Virus record (IMG/VR): IMGVR_UViG_3300025138_012061
Location: 1-21,146 of that record
DNA: 21,146 nucleotides
Direction: 5' to 3' (one strand)
Source of the DNA: a virus
This document shows positions 7,162-20,069 of this stretch, piece after piece. Positions within the stretch are counted from its first letter, which is position 1. Each line of letters begins with the position of its first letter. The notes below the pieces were generated by a model. The model did no database searches, was not told the DNA's origin, and saw only the letters and a program-made list of their open reading frames with translations. A program made the translations under genes and the position numbers.

Positions 7162-7668
7162 TCAATTTATTTTATAAATGTTTCTATAATTTCTTTTTAA
7201 TGAATTATCATCTAATCCATAACCTACCACCCATTCATCATCTATTTCAAAACAGAAATGATCAACTGGAGGACTATTTTCTTTACGTTTAAGTAACGTA
7301 ACAACTTTTACATCTGATGGCATCATATCATTTACTAATAATAAGATTTCAAACATTGTTTTACCTGTATCAACTATATCATCTACAATATAAACACGTT
7401 TACCTTTACAGTGTATTTCTAAATCTTTTGTAATTTTAACACCTTGTGAATTATCTCTCCCATCATATGATTTTGCTCTAATAAAATCAACTTGTATATC
7501 GATACCCATATCTTTAACCAAATCAGAAAAGAATGCAAATCCACCATTCAATACACAAATCATTACTGGTGGCATAATATCACCTGAAGCTTTATGTTCT
7601 TCTGAAATCTTATGTGCCATTGATCTAACACGTCTTTCTATTTTAAATTCTGGTATTAATATTTCCAT
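7162..7668 (-). CDS. Hypoxanthine/guanine phosphoribosyltransferase-like enzyme
   Basis: Transfers phosphoribose from PRPP to a purine base (hypoxanthine or guanine to IMP or GMP). The 168-residue protein has the type I PRTase fold: VLNGGFAF (about 39-46, pyrophosphate loop), the flexible-loop KSYDG (about 66-70), the PRPP-binding VYIVDDIVDTGKT (about 92-104) and the base-pocket VVGYGLDDN near the end (about 147-155) followed by RN. Length matches bacterial Hpt (about 170-180). Its ATG overlaps the FolE stop (TAATG), so the two are probably translated together. In that setting it may raise the GMP/GTP pool that FolE consumes; acting directly on a 7-deazapurine base is a more speculative option. 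Confidence 0.9.
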   Translation of the reverse strand: MEILIPEFKIERRVRSMAHKISEEHKASGDIMPPVMICVLNGGFAFFSDLVKDMGIDIQVDFIRAKSYDGRDNSQGVKITKDLEIHCKGKRVYIVDDIVDTGKTMFEILLLVNDMMPSDVKVVTLLKRKENSPPVDHFCFEIDDEWVVGYGLDDNSLKRNYRNIYKIN

Positions 7669-8324
7669 TAGTACCCTCTTACAAATTCATAATACTCATT
7701 TCTTGTAGCAGAATCATCTTTAAATGCTCCAGTCAATTTACTGGTCTTCATACTTGCACCTCCATGTTTAACTCCTCTACATTGTACACAGTTATGAGTT
7801 GCATCAATCATTACTCCAACACCTGCATTATCTGAAATAATTTGGTTAATAGCATTATGAATAGCAACTGTCAATTGTTCTTGAATAGCACCTCTTCTTG
7901 CAAAATGTTCTACCAATCTATTTAATTTACTTAATCCAATTACTCTACTATCTTTACCTGGAATATATGCAACATGCACTTTACCCATAATAGTTTGATG
8001 ATGATGTGAACACATACTAGTTAGTGGAATACCACCTTCAAATACCATGCCATCATATCCATCACTTGGAAATGTTGTTATTGCAGGAGGAGCTTCATAT
8101 CTTCCTGCCCATAAATCATTAACATATGCTTTTGCAACTCTATGTGGTGTTTTATCTGAATTAGGATCTTCTCTCCAATCTACTTTTAATGCATCTAAAA
8201 ATTTACCAAATGCATTTTCAGCATCTACAATCATTTGAGCTTTTTCTTCTTCTGTTAAAGGACGTCCATTTGCAACACCATTTGCATATCCCTCTTTAAC
8301 TAGTTCTAAATTAATTTTATTCAT
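7668..8324 (-). CDS. folE: GTP cyclohydrolase I
   Basis: Converts GTP to 7,8-dihydroneopterin triphosphate and formate, the shared first step of folate, biopterin and 7-deazaguanine synthesis. The 218-residue protein contains the zinc and active-site segments SMCSHHHQTIMGKVHVAYIP (Cys 105, His 107-108) and THNCVQCRGVKH (Cys 179/182), plus TPHRVAKAY (about 59-67) and VIGLSKLNRLVEHFARR (about 128-144), all typical of the decameric FolE family. Length is normal. It lies in a run QueD-QueE-small ORF-FolE-PRTase, which points to deazaguanine rather than folate production. The start at 8324 overlaps the end of the 51-residue gene by 8 bases. Confidence 0.95.
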   Translation of the reverse strand: MNKINLELVKEGYANGVANGRPLTEEEKAQMIVDAENAFGKFLDALKVDWREDPNSDKTPHRVAKAYVNDLWAGRYEAPPAITTFPSDGYDGMVFEGGIPLTSMCSHHHQTIMGKVHVAYIPGKDSRVIGLSKLNRLVEHFARRGAIQEQLTVAIHNAINQIISDNAGVGVMIDATHNCVQCRGVKHGGASMKTSKLTGAFKDDSATRNEYYEFVRGY

Positions 8325-8472
8325 CTTTTAATTTTTCTATTATAGTTCGTAATTTATTTATTAATACTGATACATCTTCTGGGTCCATTGTTATTGCACA
8401 ACATGTATCAGTATTTTCTTCTATCTCGTTTAGCAACTCAAGTGCCTTATTAAACTCCTCGTTCCGTATCAT
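8317..8472 (-). CDS. Small acidic protein, 51 residues
   Basis: A short open frame from ATG 8472 to TAA 8317, bridging QueE and FolE. It reads MIRNEEFNKALELLNEIEEN, then TDTCCAITMDPEDVSVLINK, then a charged helix ending IIEKLKDE. It overlaps the end of QueE by 23 bases and the start of FolE by 8 bases, the usual packing here, and it exactly fills what would otherwise be a 125-base gap. Composition looks like a real two-helix acidic protein. No family recognised; the Cys-Cys pair is notable. An internal Met (residue 29) is a possible alternative start. Expression is inferred only. Confidence 0.6.
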   Translation of the reverse strand: MIRNEEFNKALELLNEIEENTDTCCAITMDPEDVSVLINKLRTIIEKLKDE

Positions 8473-9223
8473 ATGCTATTATGTGATCTCTACCTGTCAT
8501 GTTATAACCATGTATTGCTACCATTTCAAATACTTTTGGATACATTTCAACTAATGTTTTCCTAGTATCACCTGCTGGCATAATATAAGTTTTATCTTTT
8601 GGAATACCTAATTCAACTCGATAATCTTCTATTTCTGCTAAATTTTCATCTGTACCATCCCATACTGGTTTATAATGATAATCTTTATGAAATGCAATCA
8701 TTTGTTTTATGGCATCTGTATTTTGTCTTTTTCTATTATGAATCTTAACCATTCGCTCATCTACAACTTTACCTGCAGGTGTAATAGCTCCTACTACTGG
8801 AACGCTATTTGAAAATTTAGGACTTAAAGATAATAATCCTAATGGATAATCTGTCTCAACATAATGACTACCTTCTGTTTCAATTGTAATCAAAATACCT
8901 CTTTCATTTGCAAAATGAGTCAATTCATTTACTAATGCTGGATGCATTGTCGGAGATCCTCCTGTTAACATCATTTCTTTTACCTGTGGATTATCATCAT
9001 ATATTTTAACTATGTCATTAAAACAAAATGTTCCTTTTTCTGGATGGATACTTGTATACCAACTATCACACCAGCCACCTGCTCCAAAATAACATCTATG
9101 GGTACAACCTGTTGTTCTAACAGCAATAGTCGGTCTACCAAATCTTGATCCTTCTGATTGTACACACCTATATACTTCTAATACAGGTAAAGTTTTATTA
9201 TAATCTTCTATTCTTTTATTCAT
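8450..9223 (-). CDS. queE: 7-carboxy-7-deazaguanine synthase (QueE-like radical SAM enzyme)
   Basis: Radical SAM enzyme that contracts 6-carboxytetrahydropterin to 7-carboxy-7-deazaguanine. Evidence in 257 residues: VYRCVQSEGSRFGRPTIAVR (QueE substrate/SAM N-terminus, QSEG and RxxG), the iron-sulphur cysteines in TTGCTHRCYF and GGWCDSWYTS (Cys 40, 44, 52), LTGGSPTMHP (about 85-94, SAM-binding GGxP) and ETEGSHY (QueE ETNG-type motif). The cysteine spacing is C-x3-C-x7-C instead of the usual radical SAM C-x3-C-x2-C; loops in this region vary among QueE proteins. The ATG at 9223 overlaps the end of QueD by 8 bases; the GTG at 9244 would lengthen the overlap without adding conserved sequence. Confidence 0.88.
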   Translation of the reverse strand: MNKRIEDYNKTLPVLEVYRCVQSEGSRFGRPTIAVRTTGCTHRCYFGAGGWCDSWYTSIHPEKGTFCFNDIVKIYDDNPQVKEMMLTGGSPTMHPALVNELTHFANERGILITIETEGSHYVETDYPLGLLSLSPKFSNSVPVVGAITPAGKVVDERMVKIHNRKRQNTDAIKQMIAFHKDYHYKPVWDGTDENLAEIEDYRVELGIPKDKTYIMPAGDTRKTLVEMYPKVFEMVAIHGYNMTGRDHIIAYDTERGV

Positions 9224-9650
9224 AATATTCTGCCATATTTTCACTATGTTCCCAACACTGTACTTTATATACTTTCACTCTACCTCCTGTTTCTACTTTA
9301 ATTTTTTCATTCAGATATTTAAATACATGTTCTGCAAATTTTTCACAACCTACATCATCCAATATTCGTAACTGGATAAGACCTAAATTATGTAAATCTT
9401 TAAAATGTTCTAAATGTGGATCATCTTTTGCTATACACGTAGTATGATCAAATTGAGTTTTAAACCAATCCTTAACACCATTACGCTTAAAACAGCCAAA
9501 ATCGACAACCCAATTTCTATCATCTAGTTCTCCATCAAACCATACTTTAAATCGTAAAGCATATCCATGGATAAATCTACAATGTGAATCAGCTCTATAT
9601 TGTCTAAATGCTGTACTATAACCATTAAATTCTTTATAACTTCTATACAT
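9216..9650 (-). CDS. queD: QueD-like 6-carboxytetrahydropterin synthase (PTPS family)
   Basis: In the pathway QueD turns dihydroneopterin triphosphate into 6-carboxy-5,6,7,8-tetrahydropterin. The 144-residue protein keeps the family frame: Cys 24 in SHCRFIHGY (catalytic Cys, C-x3-HG), WVVDFGCFK (about 47-55), FDHTTCI (Asp 68, His 69) and a late Glu in CWEHSENMAEY (about 134). Two of the three expected zinc ligands differ: the first His is Phe 15 (STAFRQ where the family has AAHRL) and HGH reads HGY (Tyr 30). From memory, marine phage QueD-like proteins share this pattern, so it may be a subfamily. QueE follows with an 8-base overlap. ATG 9650 lies one base after the upstream stop; a TTG frame to 9701 is unlikely. 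Confidence 0.85.
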   Translation of the reverse strand: MYRSYKEFNGYSTAFRQYRADSHCRFIHGYALRFKVWFDGELDDRNWVVDFGCFKRNGVKDWFKTQFDHTTCIAKDDPHLEHFKDLHNLGLIQLRILDDVGCEKFAEHVFKYLNEKIKVETGGRVKVYKVQCWEHSENMAEYYE

Positions 9651-9651
9651 A

Positions 9652-9951
9652 TTATTGTCTTTTATTATGAGTCCAAGCAAACCAATATTTTTTACCTTCA
9701 AGTAAATGAGATGTTGTATATGAATATTCGCCTACAAATTCTGTCATATAATTTAACATCGTACTTTGTTGTTTAAACAACGTAAAATTATTTGCATTAG
9801 GATAATATTCATGAAAATTATAACCAGAACTCTTTACAGATTTATTATTAACTGTTTCAAATACTATTGAACGTAAATAATCTTGATCATGAGTAGGAAG
9901 CTTTTTAAAATTAAATGTTAATTCAACATCTCCAAATTTAAATTTTTGCAT
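9652..9951 (-). CDS. Uncharacterised protein, 99 residues
   Basis: Not recognised. It opens MQKFKFGDVELTFNFKKLPT and is rich in aromatic residues (YNFHEYYPN, YMTEFVGEYSY, KYWFAWTH), suggesting a small beta-rich soluble protein. No signal peptide or membrane segment. It is the first gene after a promoter-like element and stands one base before QueD, so it heads the transcript carrying QueD, QueE, FolE and the phosphoribosyltransferase. A link with the pterin pathway is positional only. Confidence 0.65.
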   Translation of the reverse strand: MQKFKFGDVELTFNFKKLPTHDQDYLRSIVFETVNNKSVKSSGYNFHEYYPNANNFTLFKQQSTMLNYMTEFVGEYSYTTSHLLEGKKYWFAWTHNKRQ

Positions 9952-11239: not shown

Positions 11240-11929
11240 CTAATCTATAACTTTTAAATATGTAAAAAGGTATGGTTTATTGAGGTAATGGCCTGTAAAA
11301 TAATCGATGCCTATTTTATCTAGTCCAAATAATTTGGCTTTGTATTCAGCTTGTTCATATTCATCTAATTCTTGCCAATGAAATTTTGTTGATAATAATT
11401 TTTGAGCTAAATCTTCCCAATCTGCAGATTCAATAAATTTTTGTAACTTGTTAACTATATCACAAAATTTATCATAATCTCTACAATCCAATTCAATATG
11501 AAACATTTCTATAACCTGGCTTTCATCTATCCAATCTATACCAAAATCCAAACCATATTTTGGTTTTATATGAACCATTTTATATAATTTTGGATGTTCT
11601 ATTGCTTCATTAATTAATTGTTCTCTAGCTTCACCTGCAAATCCAAATCTATGTAATATATGAGCATGGTCTATATAAATATTTGGATGTGGCTTATCTT
11701 GTGTATACCAATGTTGCAATACTACATTTAATGCATCATCTGATACTCTTCTAGCCATTCTATCCTCAGTATGAATGGAAACTTCATTTACTGTATGATA
11801 TTCTTTTTCTAAACTATTTAATTGATAGCCTTCTCGATCGAAAAAATCTAAATCTAAATTATTAGATTCTTGCAATGGCTTATCTAAATATAAATCTTTT
11901 ATTATTTTTATTTTATTTCTTTGAAACAT
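11240..11929 (-). CDS. Uncharacterised protein, 229 residues
   Basis: Not recognised. From ATG 11929 it reads MFQRNKIKIIKDLYLDKPLQ; TTG 11938 is a less likely start. The middle holds DRMARRVSDDALNVVLQHWY and a His-rich stretch (PHPNIYIDHAHILHRFG), then FHIELDCRDYDKFCDIVNKL, and the C-terminus is aromatic (YFTGHYLNKPYLFTYLKVID). It appears soluble, without signal peptide. The N-terminus overlaps the end of the pterin dehydratase gene by 17 bases. It is the last gene of the RNR transcript, followed by a 115-base gap with a new promoter. Confidence 0.7.
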   Translation of the reverse strand: MFQRNKIKIIKDLYLDKPLQESNNLDLDFFDREGYQLNSLEKEYHTVNEVSIHTEDRMARRVSDDALNVVLQHWYTQDKPHPNIYIDHAHILHRFGFAGEAREQLINEAIEHPKLYKMVHIKPKYGLDFGIDWIDESQVIEMFHIELDCRDYDKFCDIVNKLQKFIESADWEDLAQKLLSTKFHWQELDEYEQAEYKAKLFGLDKIGIDYFTGHYLNKPYLFTYLKVID

Positions 11930-12278
11930 TTTTTGCAAATTCTATATCTTTTGTTGTAACAGCTTTATGAGAATGAGAATATATTTCTAATTTAACCGTA
12001 TCATAATTAAACAAGATGTCTGGATGGTGATCTAATTTTGCAGAAATTTTAGCTACATCGTTCACAAACTTTAAGGTTTTTTTATAATCTTCAAATTTTC
12101 TTTCCATGGTAATTGCGTAACTACCTTTAATTATAGTTACTCTAAAATCAGTTGCTCCTACTTTAGATAATTCTTTTGTTATATTTTCTTGAGGTATAAC
12201 TTCTCTATCTACGTCAGCAGTACCTTCAACTTGACTTGAACCACGTACTTGTTCTAATATGTTTTTAAGGTTTATCAT
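11913..12278 (-). CDS. Pterin-4a-carbinolamine dehydratase-like protein
   Basis: The C-terminal 70 residues of this 121-residue protein match the PCD/DCoH family: FEDYKKTLKFVNDVAKISAK (about 62-81), LDHHPDILFNYDTVKLEIYS (His 84 and 85, the paired catalytic histidines), SHSHKAVTTKDIEFA (His 102 or 104, third active-site His; T-x-x-D-x-x-x-A helix). The family dehydrates 4a-hydroxytetrahydropterin, recycling the cofactor after aromatic amino acid hydroxylation. Residues 1-30 (MINLKNILEQVRGSSQVEGT and on) are an extra low-complexity leader not needed for the fold. ATG 12278 is chosen over GTG 12317. It overlaps the DUF5522-like gene by 14 bases. No aromatic amino acid hydroxylase is visible in the window, so its phage role is open. 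Confidence 0.85.
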   Translation of the reverse strand: MINLKNILEQVRGSSQVEGTADVDREVIPQENITKELSKVGATDFRVTIIKGSYAITMERKFEDYKKTLKFVNDVAKISAKLDHHPDILFNYDTVKLEIYSHSHKAVTTKDIEFAKNVSKK

Positions 12279-12399
12279 TCTTATATAAATATGGACAATG
12301 CCTACATTTATTATCACAACAATGTCCTCTTTTCAAATGAAACTGTTCTGTAAAAACAATCTTCCCATTTTCTAAATAATAATCTTTAGACAATTTCAC
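12265..12399 (-). CDS. DUF5522-like cysteine-rich mini-protein
   Basis: A 44-residue open frame lying across the end of the ribonucleotide reductase gene. It reads KLSKDYYLENGKIVFTEQFH, then LKRGHCCDNKCRHCPYLYKN, then DKP. The pattern YYLENGxxVFTxxxHLKRGxCCxxxCRHCPY is characteristic of the small DUF5522 proteins common in Bacteroidota, here with Cys 27, 28, 32 and 35 (numbering from the GTG) and flanking His residues that could hold a metal. Function unknown. There is no ATG; a GTG at 12399 sits five bases after GGAGG (in the RNR Gly-Gly codons), and TTG 12393 is the alternative. It overlaps the RNR end by 14 bases and the next gene by 14. Confidence 0.75.
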   Translation of the reverse strand: MKLSKDYYLENGKIVFTEQFHLKRGHCCDNKCRHCPYLYKNDKP

Positions 12400-17976: not shown

Positions 17977-18747
17977 TTAATCGTTAAACAAATCATCAAA
18001 TGCTTTACCAACATCATCTACTTTGTTAACTCCAGCTGGAACTTTTTCTTCTTTCTTTGGTTCTGCTGTCGAACTTGTTTCAGTTGAATTTCCATCTTCT
18101 GGATTCAACCATGCTTCTAAAGCTGCTTTCAAATCATCATATGAAGGCTCTTTAAAAATATCAGTCAAATTAGGTTGATTATTTGCAGCAGATTCTGCTA
18201 CATTTTTATCTTCCGTCATTGGAGTAACATTAGGTTTTACTCTAATTGTTGTTTTAGGAAACTGTCCTGGTCCTTCTGATGGTGTAAATTCTACTAAGAT
18301 ATCTCTACCGCCCATTGGGTCTGTGATATCACCATAATCTGGATCAGCTATTACTCCTAATAGTTCAGTATAAACTTGTTTTCCAAAACCCCATAATTTA
18401 ACTCCTTCAGATTCCTTTCCTCTAATTAGAACAGGAACATAAGTTCTCATTTTAGGTTCCATTTTCTTTCCTAGTTTCCATTCATCTGAATTACCAGAAT
18501 TTTTTAATTTTTCACAAAACTCTACTACTGGATCAGGTTTTCCATGAGTGATTGGTGATAAGAAATTTTTCTTACCTAAATCATAATGAAAGTAAAGTTC
18601 TTGAAAAGGATTATTTCTGTCGTGCTGATAAGGTACTATTCTTACAACTTGTTTACCTGGTTCAGGTTTCCACAGGTTATCTCTACGAGCTCCTGTTGTT
18701 TGTAACTGGTTAAGTTTGCGTTTTATTGCTTCTAAGTCAATTGCCAT
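17977..18747 (-). CDS. Single-stranded DNA-binding protein (T4 gp32-like)
   Basis: Coats ssDNA at the fork and recruits partners. The 256-residue protein begins with a basic N-terminus (MAIDLEAIKRKLNQLQ) suited to cooperative self-binding, has the OB-like core segments DNLWKPEPGKQVVRIVPYQH and MRTYVPVLIRGKESEGVKLW with GFGKQVYTELLGV, and ends in a low-complexity linker (NSTETSSTAEPKKEEKVP) and an acidic tail (DDVGKAFDDLFND), the typical partner-binding tail. T4 gp32 has a zinc site of three Cys and one His; this protein has only one Cys in the core (EFCEKL), so the zinc site is absent. It heads the UvsX-exonuclease-helicase cluster, behind two promoter-like elements. Confidence 0.9.
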   Translation of the reverse strand: MAIDLEAIKRKLNQLQTTGARRDNLWKPEPGKQVVRIVPYQHDRNNPFQELYFHYDLGKKNFLSPITHGKPDPVVEFCEKLKNSGNSDEWKLGKKMEPKMRTYVPVLIRGKESEGVKLWGFGKQVYTELLGVIADPDYGDITDPMGGRDILVEFTPSEGPGQFPKTTIRVKPNVTPMTEDKNVAESAANNQPNLTDIFKEPSYDDLKAALEAWLNPEDGNSTETSSTAEPKKEEKVPAGVNKVDDVGKAFDDLFND

Positions 18748-18774
18748 TTTTTTCTTTTTTTAATGGTTAATAAT

Positions 18775-18813
18775 TAATTAATAATATAACAACTTTATTT
18801 CATTTATCCTAAT
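18775..18813 (-). promoter_or_regulatory. Promoter-like element, proximal to SSB (TTAG-N20-TATATTAT)
   Basis: On the minus strand ATTAGGA (complement 18807-18813) is followed by AAATGAAATAAAG and then TTATATTATT (complement 18780-18789), with 20 bases between TTAG and TATATTAT. It lies 30-60 bases before the SSB start and is the nearer of two elements that could give the SSB-UvsX transcript a high dose. Confidence 0.55.
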
Positions 18814-18900
18814 GATTATCGAAAAAAGTTGTAAAAAAGTTTTTATTTTTTATTTTTTAATTTTGAGTTTAATTATGGCTAAACTCTAATCCTTTCTATT

Positions 18901-18938
18901 TAATATAAATATAATGAATATATTTCAAATAACCTAAT
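18901..18938 (-). promoter_or_regulatory. Promoter-like element, distal to SSB (TTAG-N20-TATATTTA)
   Basis: On the minus strand ATTAGGT (complement 18932-18938) precedes TATATTTA with 20 bases between; the spacer TTATTTGAAATATATTCAT almost equals that of the element at 7117-7158, down to TGAAATATATTC. It overlaps the 3' arm of the inverted repeat. Confidence 0.65.
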
Positions 18939-18962
18939 TATTAATTGAAATATATTCATTAT
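18911..18962. repeat. 18-bp perfect inverted repeat with 16-base loop
   Basis: ATAATGAATATATTTCAA (18911-18928) and TTGAAATATATTCATTAT (18945-18962) are exact reverse complements; the loop 18929-18944 contains ATAACCTAATTATTAA. It lies eight bases beyond the stop of the secreted-protein gene and overlaps the promoter-like element. It could be a hairpin terminator for that gene, an operator, or a mirror-image pair of promoters. Confidence 0.8.
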
Positions 18963-18970
18963 TTTTGTCT

Positions 18971-19624
18971 TTATCTGACTTTATATTTAATCTTACCTTC
19001 TTCTATATAAACACCTTTTGGTTCACGTATAATTTGGCCATTAAGATTATATAATCTATTATCTTCAATAGATTTCTTTAATATTTCTTCCATGCCACTA
19101 CTACAAGGTAATCCTGAATCGCAATCTATATATTCTGTTACAATAACATCTACATATTCTATAACATCTACATATTCAATTACGTTAACATATTCAATCA
19201 CATCAACATATTCTATAACATTGACATACTCAATAACATCGACATATACAGTTTCATAAATAGTTTCATAAATATATTCTATTACAGGTACATCTACATA
19301 TATAGTTTCATAAATATACTCTATTACAGGTACATCTACATATACTGTATCACATTCTATTACTACTGGTTCTGGACATTCTTCAATTGTTGTTGGAACA
19401 ACATCAGCTCCTTCATCAGTTGCATCTACACAATCTTCATATCCATCATTTATGTAAAATGAAGGTACACATCCGTTTGGTGAATACATTGTCCAATTGG
19501 AGGGATCTTCTCCACAATAAAATCCTTGCGCTATTGCACACTCTAAACAATTGTTAGATAAACCATTTTGTGCATTGAGTCCTAGACTCATGATTGCAAA
19601 TAAAAATATAATTAATTTCTTCAT
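18971..19624 (-). CDS. Predicted secreted repeat protein with T9SS-like C-terminal tail
   Basis: 217 residues. A signal peptide MKKLIIFLFAIMSLGLNAQ (1-19) ends in the NAQ seen in many Bacteroidota exports. Residues 26-65 are Cys-rich and end YINDGYEDCVDATDEGAD, like an acidic LDL-receptor-A calcium motif. Residues about 94-166 are repeats: two copies of a 14-residue unit (YVDVPVIEYIYETI, 95-108 and 109-122) and then five 6-residue units VxVIEY (128-157). After DCDSGLPCSS the end reads LYNLNGQIIREPKGVYIEEG, then KIKYKVR, resembling Bacteroidota type IX secretion sorting tails. No enzyme motif. It is flanked by its own promoter and a hairpin, typical of a phage accessory ('moron') gene. Role at the host surface is inference. 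Confidence 0.75.
   Translation of the reverse strand: MKKLIIFLFAIMSLGLNAQNGLSNNCLECAIAQGFYCGEDPSNWTMYSPNGCVPSFYINDGYEDCVDATDEGADVVPTTIEECPEPVVIECDTVYVDVPVIEYIYETIYVDVPVIEYIYETIYETVYVDVIEYVNVIEYVDVIEYVNVIEYVDVIEYVDVIVTEYIDCDSGLPCSSGMEEILKKSIEDNRLYNLNGQIIREPKGVYIEEGKIKYKVR
19127..19345 (-). repeat. Degenerate in-frame tandem repeat (42-bp and 18-bp units)
   Basis: This part of the secreted-protein gene encodes two 14-residue units and five 6-residue V-x-V-I-E-Y units. The DNA copies differ at synonymous positions, so the peptide repeat appears to be kept by selection, or is old. Such arrays can expand or shrink by slippage. Confidence 0.8.
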
Positions 19625-19650
19625 AACTTCTCTCTTTTTATTAATATTAA

Positions 19651-19690
19651 TTATATATAAATATCAAAAAGTTATCGCAGAATTATAAAT
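19651..19690 (-). promoter_or_regulatory. Promoter-like element before the secreted-protein gene
   Basis: On the minus strand GATATTTATATATAA (within complement 19651-19665) matches the TATCTTTATATATAA of the 7117-7158 element at 13 of 15 positions; TTTA stands 20 bases upstream in place of TTAG/TTTG. It lies in the 58-base gap before ATG 19624. Confidence 0.5.
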
Positions 19691-20069
19691 CGATTCTTTT
19701 ATGTAGATCTAAATGAATATGTCTTACATCATCGCCATCTGTTAACATTAAAGAATTATCATATATTTGCCAATTTATAATAAATTTCTTATCTAATACT
19801 CCATTATTAGATTTTCTTATTATTGCATTTAAAGCATTAACTGTATATAATGTATTTGTTTCTTTCTTCCTATGTATCATTATTGTGTTAGGAGTCTTTT
19901 TATAATCATCCGGTTCTACATTATATGTTACATATAGTTCTGACGAGTTATCTGCATTTGAAAATACAAACATTCTTTTTTCAGCTACTGTATATGATTT
20001 TGATATATAATCAATAATTAAATTTAAATCCTTTCTATGTGCAAATGTACATAATAATTGTGTTCTCAA
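19683..20069 (-). CDS. Uncharacterised protein, 128 residues, TTG start
   Basis: Not assigned. It reads MRTQLLCTFAHRKDLNLIID, then a strand-rich body (KRMFVFSNADNSSELYVTYN), PNTIMIHRKKETNTLYTVNA and a C-terminal DLHKRIDL. The even, strand-rich composition suggests a small structured soluble protein; from memory, similar sequences occur in marine T4-like phages as hypothetical proteins. No ATG precedes residue 33 (in KRMFVF), so the start is TTG 20069. It is supported by AAAGGAGGAG about eight bases upstream, one of the best Shine-Dalgarno sites here, lying in the last codons of the upstream gene (KGGE). It ends before the promoter of the secreted-protein gene. Confidence 0.7.
   Translation of the reverse strand: MRTQLLCTFAHRKDLNLIIDYISKSYTVAEKRMFVFSNADNSSELYVTYNVEPDDYKKTPNTIMIHRKKETNTLYTVNALNAIIRKSNNGVLDKKFIINWQIYDNSLMLTDGDDVRHIHLDLHKRIDL

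Follow-up and report, generated by a model that had tools for sequence, protein, structure and literature searches.

A conserved family of predicted secreted proteins of marine phages with an LDLa-like head, a repeat stalk and a short tail resembling type IX sorting signals

The window analyzed here, a 21,146-base IMG/VR record, carries T4-like replication genes, viz., those for a gp32-like single-strand DNA-binding protein (ssb), UvsX, a gp41-like helicase and a family-B polymerase. Next to the ssb gene lies a gene for a 217-aa protein, P0001, whose succession of signal peptide, Cys-rich head, VDVIEY stalk and tail agrees with a first-pass annotation made from the sequence alone, and which we now place on the minus strand. 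The features of the locus are listed below.

17977..18747, minus strand: gp32-like single-strand DNA-binding protein, the conserved right-hand border of the slot (profile match, comparative loci)
18902..18971, no strand assigned: AT-rich hairpin directly 3' of the gene, a putative transcript 3' end (RNA z-score -6.5)
18971..19624, minus strand: P0001, whole gene for the 217-aa predicted secreted head-stalk-tail protein (ATG start; at least 118 relatives in viral contigs; dN/dS, signal peptide excluded, 0.10-0.13)
18974..19093, minus strand: short sorting-like tail, residues 178-217 (motif D YNLNGQ at 192-197; PKGVYI at 202-207; K211..K215)
19094..19126, minus strand: junction DCDSGLPCSSG, residues 167-177 (common to the type B cargo family)
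19127..19351, minus strand: VDVIEY / YIYETIYVDVPVIEY repeat stalk, residues 92-166 (18-nt DNA period; homologous stalk in the type B cargo of sister phages)
19352..19567, minus strand: LDL-receptor-class-A-like head, residues 20-91 (PDB profile search, structural neighbors, invariant columns)
19568..19624, minus strand: predicted Sec signal peptide, residues 1-19, MKKLIIFLFAIMSLGLNAQ (hydropathy/charge/cleavage heuristic)
19683..20069, minus strand: conserved 128-aa protein of unknown function, the left-hand border of the slot (comparative loci)

The hairpin indeed sits just downstream of P0001, as had been proposed; its arms (18902-18932 and 18941-18971) overlap the end of the stop codon and, being palindromic, it gives no indication of direction. 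The gene had also been credited with a promoter of its own, which is not supported: 10 sigma-70-like sites were found against 14.6 expected by chance from shuffles, so that promoter-like sites are no commoner than in shuffled sequence. A position between replication genes holds for the downstream side, where the gp32-like ssb lies, but not for the upstream side, where the neighboring gene (19683-20069) encodes the conserved protein of unknown function. The accessory-gene layout claimed for the locus is borne out by comparison, as the content of the slot differs among phages and the P0001 family is missing from more divergent crAss-like contigs.

The region between the 128-aa gene and ssb, 18748-19682 in the window and the same slot in L021-L096, is a hypervariable accessory slot with contents that are unrelated from phage to phage. 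The T4-like sibling G010 (129.6 kb), with UvsX 96% and ssb 82% identical to those of the window, has in this slot an Omp28-type signal-peptide protein with the tail ...NKIYDMLGREWKVQFGDLPKGMYIQNRKKYIKLK. Between the window and G010, the body has been swapped and the tail type kept. Elsewhere in the window, 1286-2536 and 7162-9701 hold genes for a TGT/DpdA-like protein and for HPRT-, FolE-, QueE- and QueD-like proteins, some of them named by sequence inspection only, which likely constitute a 7-deazaguanine DNA-modification set; 11913-12317 encodes a pterin-4a-carbinolamine dehydratase (Pfam E 4e-18).

A profile built from three sequences recovered at least 118 relatives of P0001 from viral contigs, 80 of which were kept; 79 full-length members, including L002, a near copy of the window, were examined. 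A survey for the same architecture found the signal peptide, Cys-rich head, repeat stalk of beta-type repeats, DCDTGLPC-type junction and tail in all 79. The signal peptide of P0001 is without a lipobox, and the protein passes a rule based on hydropathy, charge and cleavage that otherwise drew only a weak match from gp41 among the genes of the window; all 79 members pass it too, and a Bacteroidota-like AQ/SQ end of the signal peptide is seen in 62 of the 79 homologs. Pairwise dN/dS over 85 closer pairs is 0.13 for the head, 0.10 for the stalk and 0.12 for the tail: the family is under purifying selection.

Most of the relatives are found in crAss-like phages, the window itself being T4-like. 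The contig of the full-length relative L003 measures 72.9 kb and encodes a TerL with its nearest counterparts in crAss-like phages; Bacteroides, Flavobacterium and Cellulophaga phages are among the matches. Thus, the window represents a T4-like phage with a gene otherwise mainly of marine crAss-like phages. Within the TerL clade, the three nearest long contigs carry the family and five more divergent ones, 55-89 kb in length, lack it, which makes it accessory at the level of the clade. No relative was detected in 50,697 isolated-phage records, nor any homolog in 84,980 bacterial and archaeal genomes with the patterns used (A1). UniProt contains two unnamed viral proteins that the family model matches with 44% and 38% identity; hence, the family has been deposited but is apparently uncharacterized.

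The N-terminal part of P0001, correctly described at first pass as Cys-rich, has seven Cys within residues 20-91. When the PDB was searched with the family profile (A3; hmmsearch), 32 matches were obtained, nearly all of them to LDLa domains (best E 0.0033), and LDLa modules are likewise the best structural neighbors (Foldseek) of the AlphaFold model of the head, which has a pLDDT of 84-95. Alignment of this model with a megalin module (VIA-align) covers 43 residues with an rmsd of 2.3 and a Z of 3.6, a value that is low because the head domain is small. Four acidic residues, Asp60, Asp64, Asp70 and Glu71, are invariant in 58 sequences, and we take them to correspond to the Ca2+ ligand positions of LDLa. 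The head shares with the LDL receptor class A module (PF00057) this acidic ligand set, the FxC...GC(V/I) plus DGxxDCxDxSDE pattern and the fold, and differs from it in having Asn in place of the fourth Cys and two extra Cys at the N-terminus. Since it also stays below the Pfam gathering score for PF00057 (13.4 bits for P0001 and 14.7 bits for L003 against a cut-off of 24.1) and is without one canonical Cys, we name it LDLa-like. The head is an LDL-receptor-class-A-like calcium module, with calcium binding as the predicted activity. The repeat stalk reported in the first-pass annotation follows as VDVIEY repeats over residues 92-166 with an 18-nt period in the DNA; its predicted structure is of low confidence.

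The tail was present as claimed, but the earlier quotation of it ended seven residues before the true C-terminus, ...REPKGVYIEEGKIKYKVR, which contains a KxxxK motif; the final KIKYKVR was absent from that quotation. The last 22 residues of P0001 comprise P202-K-G-V-Y-I207 and K211-I-K-Y-K215, which match the PxGxYVV and KxxxK motifs. In Porphyromonas gingivalis, the last 22 residues have been reported to be sufficient for secretion by the type IX secretion system (T9SS), and PxGxYVV and KxxxK are the most conserved motifs (PMC5445135). The tail is retained in all 79 full-length members of the family, which have GxY[IVF] (79/79), motif D (76/79) and K-x1-3-K (77/79), with the stricter forms PxGxY and KxxxK in 49 and 54 of the 79, respectively.

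The proposed likeness to sorting domains holds over a short stretch but does not extend to the curated models. Neither TIGR04183 nor Por_Secre_tail matches P0001, its tail or the window; hence, the tail is not a formal type A domain. The type B profiles TIGR04131 and PF13585 (CHU_C) likewise gave no match in P0001, its tail or the window. As the curated models find no match, direct filing of the tail under TIGR04183/Por_Secre_tail or CHU_C was rejected. In profile-profile comparison (hhalign), the family tail alone aligns weakly with canonical type A tails (14 columns, probability 6%, P 0.006), and a profile (A8) built from 16 diverse short tails of phages aligns with canonical type A C-terminal domains (CTDs) at a probability of 70% and E 4e-5. 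In a search of 395 Bacteroidota genomes with A8, 24 of the 30 matches inspected lay no more than 45 aa from the C-terminus of an ORF; most inspected matches were canonical type A tails with the PNP motif upstream, and in the genome with the strongest match (G431), signal-peptide proteins end in true short tails. The tail profile A5 gave 16 weak matches in 296 Bacteroidota genomes, four of them on type A-like C-termini and the others apparently by chance. The modeled tail consists of a short helix and a few strands (pLDDT 79-90) with no seven-strand Ig-like sandwich; type A CTDs are seven-strand sandwiches of ~100 aa (PMC12618676). With the type A domain (TIGR04183/PF18962), the tail thus has in common its C-terminal place, motif D, PxGxY and KxxxK and the accompanying Sec signal peptide, whereas it is ~40 aa long rather than ~70-100 and is missing the PNP half and most of the strands.

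A second line of evidence comes from domain exchange. In the sister phages L007-L018, of which L007 has crAss-like TerL and portal genes, a homologous stalk and the shared YIDCxTGxxC junction are followed by a bona fide type B domain, with matches to CHU_C (E 1e-14 to 1e-15) and TIGR04131 in most of the scanned proteins. Short tails also occur on Omp28-family proteins and on a 150-aa secreted protein of other phages. Over all fetched loci, the tail pattern is found in 164 ORFs; outside the P0001 family, these reduce to two distinct sequences, both signal-peptide proteins. A role in sorting is supported both by the replacement of the tail with a type B domain and by its occurrence behind other secreted bodies. 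The identification of the P0001 tail as a shortened type A-like sorting tail is, at the level of sequence, partly supported.

The family is further characterized by a companion gene. In all 78 relatives other than L002, a signal-peptide barrel protein of ~350 aa is encoded just upstream of the P0001 family gene, as at L003:3946-4998, separated from it by a gap of 5-8 nt in 52 cases and by 145-1057 nt in the other 26; in the reverse direction, the family gene is downstream of the barrel in 78/78 assessable loci. The window has no barrel gene adjacent to P0001 or anywhere in its 21 kb. The barrel is modeled as a 12-strand-type outer-membrane barrel, and autotransporter barrels, FapF and KdgM/NanC-type porins are among its best structural neighbors; these neighbors are generic, and as many beta barrels score alike in structural searches, we claim no specific relative. 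A sequence search found no family for it, and an identity with PorP/SprF was rejected for want of a PF11751 profile match. We found at least 571 relatives of the barrel in viral contigs, none in 50,697 isolated-phage records, and two in a search of bacterial genomes, each of them on a phage-like contig within a MAG. On the T4-like side, members of this barrel family (33-34% identity) also appear beside canonical type A cargo: among 80 loci found with the T4-like barrel, the barrel lies no more than 250 nt from such cargo in 52 and no more than 6 kb in eight more. In G010, another cargo matches TIGR04183 and Por_Secre_tail, and the barrel is found elsewhere in the genome.

Several other observations concern the surroundings of these genes. 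In L268-L347, L099:464-1501 and L100:417-1478, many of them T4-like marine contigs, the barrel family is found beside repeat proteins of ~700-1200 aa (GCTDPxAFNYDPxAN.DDGSC), which end in canonical T9SS type A tails. L354 and L355 are phage-like contigs that had been binned into bacterial/archaeal MAGs (Sphingobacteriales; Nitrosopelagicus) and that encode both the barrel and T9SS cargo. Bona fide T9SS type B (CHU_C) domains are found on phage proteins of L007-L018 and at L396:1066-2034, the genes in L007 and L013 lying a short way upstream of the crAss-like TerL gene, and one type B gene is found in the 145-kb contig G332 together with the barrel and type A cargo. A secreted protein with a dockerin-like C-terminal motif (PGDLDDNGAVDVQDLLLFLENYG), for which there was no Pfam match, is encoded directly upstream of the type B cargo at L007:4063-4431 and L013:1647-2012. 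Secreted thioredoxin-fold proteins, apparently without a CxxC motif (L003:8530-8913; L355:1951-2277; L354:2301-2645), are encoded near the cargo-barrel pair in crAss-like and T4-like contigs alike. Finally, a conserved small membrane/coiled-coil protein (MAKELNEDTGF..VSIKTLIGI..; L003:8189-8533; L355:1652-1948), possibly holin- or XhlA-like, travels with the cassette, its gene being downstream of the barrel in most of L268-L347.

With modest confidence, we lean toward an account in which P0001 is a phage accessory protein displayed outside the infected Bacteroidota cell by way of Sec, the T9SS, the stalk and the barrel. The signal peptide would direct P0001 to export by Sec, a step strongly supported by its sequence. 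In the periplasm, the C-terminal ~40 residues would hand the protein to the host T9SS for passage across the outer membrane, a routing to which the motifs, the domain exchange and the neighboring genes point. The VIEY stalk would hold the calcium-binding LDLa-like head away from the cell; the domains are present in this order, and the topology is the one that they suggest. At the surface, P0001 would probably associate with the phage-encoded 12-strand-type outer-membrane barrel; the two genes co-occur, which is consistent with a physical association of their products, and the barrel of the window phage may lie elsewhere in its genome, as in its sibling G010. As the most likely consequence, the surface of the infected cell would bind differently, with either the adsorption of further phages blocked (superinfection exclusion) or adhesion altered. 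This last step is the weakest of the five, and superinfection exclusion in itself is a tentative suggestion, somewhat less likely than not.

The main rival to this account, which we consider unlikely, has P0001 exported not by the T9SS but through the phage's own barrel, with the tail docking in the barrel, which would anchor or translocate it in a two-partner or autotransporter-like manner. It would explain the near-obligate pairing of the cargo and barrel genes and accords with the autotransporter barrels and FapF among the best neighbors of the barrel model, beside the KdgM/NanC-type porins. However, the same barrel family pairs with cargo bearing canonical T9SS type A tails, the window copy is without an adjoining barrel, and the structural matches are those of beta barrels in general for a protein that sequence search places in no family. 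It is much less probable that the tail resembles a sorting signal by chance and that P0001 is a periplasmic protein acting in that compartment: such a protein would indeed match no curated sorting-domain model, but the tail is conserved, is swapped with a type B domain and recurs on unrelated bodies, and the wider short-tail profile picks type A C-termini in bacterial genomes. Equally improbable is a helper of lysis acting at the outer membrane late in infection in a spanin-like role. Though in crAss-like and T4-like relatives the gene pair has a membrane coiled-coil gene and endolysin-like genes close by, the window neighborhood consists of replication genes, a long stalk and a calcium-module head have no obvious part in lysis, and no similarity to spanins was found. 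Least probable is a virion protein, e.g., an adhesin associated with the phage tail and binding through its LDLa-like head in a calcium-dependent way. The gene pair does lie among LamG and tail-fiber-like genes in crAss-like relatives, but one would not expect virion parts to include a beta barrel or to have signal peptides, as both genes do, and the window gene adjoins ssb, away from any structural gene.

Returning to display by the T9SS, phage-encoded cargo of this system has already been published. In the parts of the Cryophage report considered here (Bellas et al. 2020, PMC7468147), such cargo is encoded in variable genes, a hijack of the host T9SS with a role in competition or superinfection is suggested, and the case is called a unique occurrence; the cargo there comprises enzymes or PA14 proteins bearing type A domains of the standard kind, and those parts mention no LDLa-like head, short tail or paired barrel. 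The crAss-BACON proteins (PMC6949934) are similar in being T9SS sorting-domain proteins of crAss-like phages of Bacteroidota but differ in having BACON repeats, in belonging to gut phages and in not being of the LDLa-stalk family. Bacterial type B substrates are known to have outer-membrane partners encoded beside them (PMC12618676). There, as in the phages, the cargo gene adjoins an outer-membrane barrel gene; however, SprB/SprF-type pairs combine type B cargo with PorP/SprF, whereas the phage barrels accompany type A or short-tail cargo and have no PF11751 match. In the open-access literature, we found no report of the P0001 family, its LDLa-like head, the short phage tail or the cargo-barrel pairing. 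What the family adds to the published cases is thus the LDLa-like head, the short tail and the pairing with a barrel.

As relatives of P0001 in dozens of marine crAss-like phages adjoin the barrel, several groups of ocean phages appear to redecorate the surface of their hosts. More speculatively, and in our view somewhat unlikely, crAss-like and T4-like marine phages could have in common a two-part display system, in which T9SS-routed cargo is served by a phage barrel as its dedicated shuttle or anchor, with an exchangeable head and an equally exchangeable tail of the short type A-like, canonical type A or type B kind. If this were true, phages would supply their own end-stage component for the type IX route of the host.

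So far, few reports exist of T9SS cargo in phages. The present family of candidate cargo is conserved, combines a minimal tail with a eukaryote-like calcium module, has a near-obligate barrel as its companion and occurs in numerous uncultivated marine phages from two unrelated groups. Its parts may be used to ask how short natural T9SS signals can be and how the phages of marine Bacteroidota alter the surface of the infected cell.
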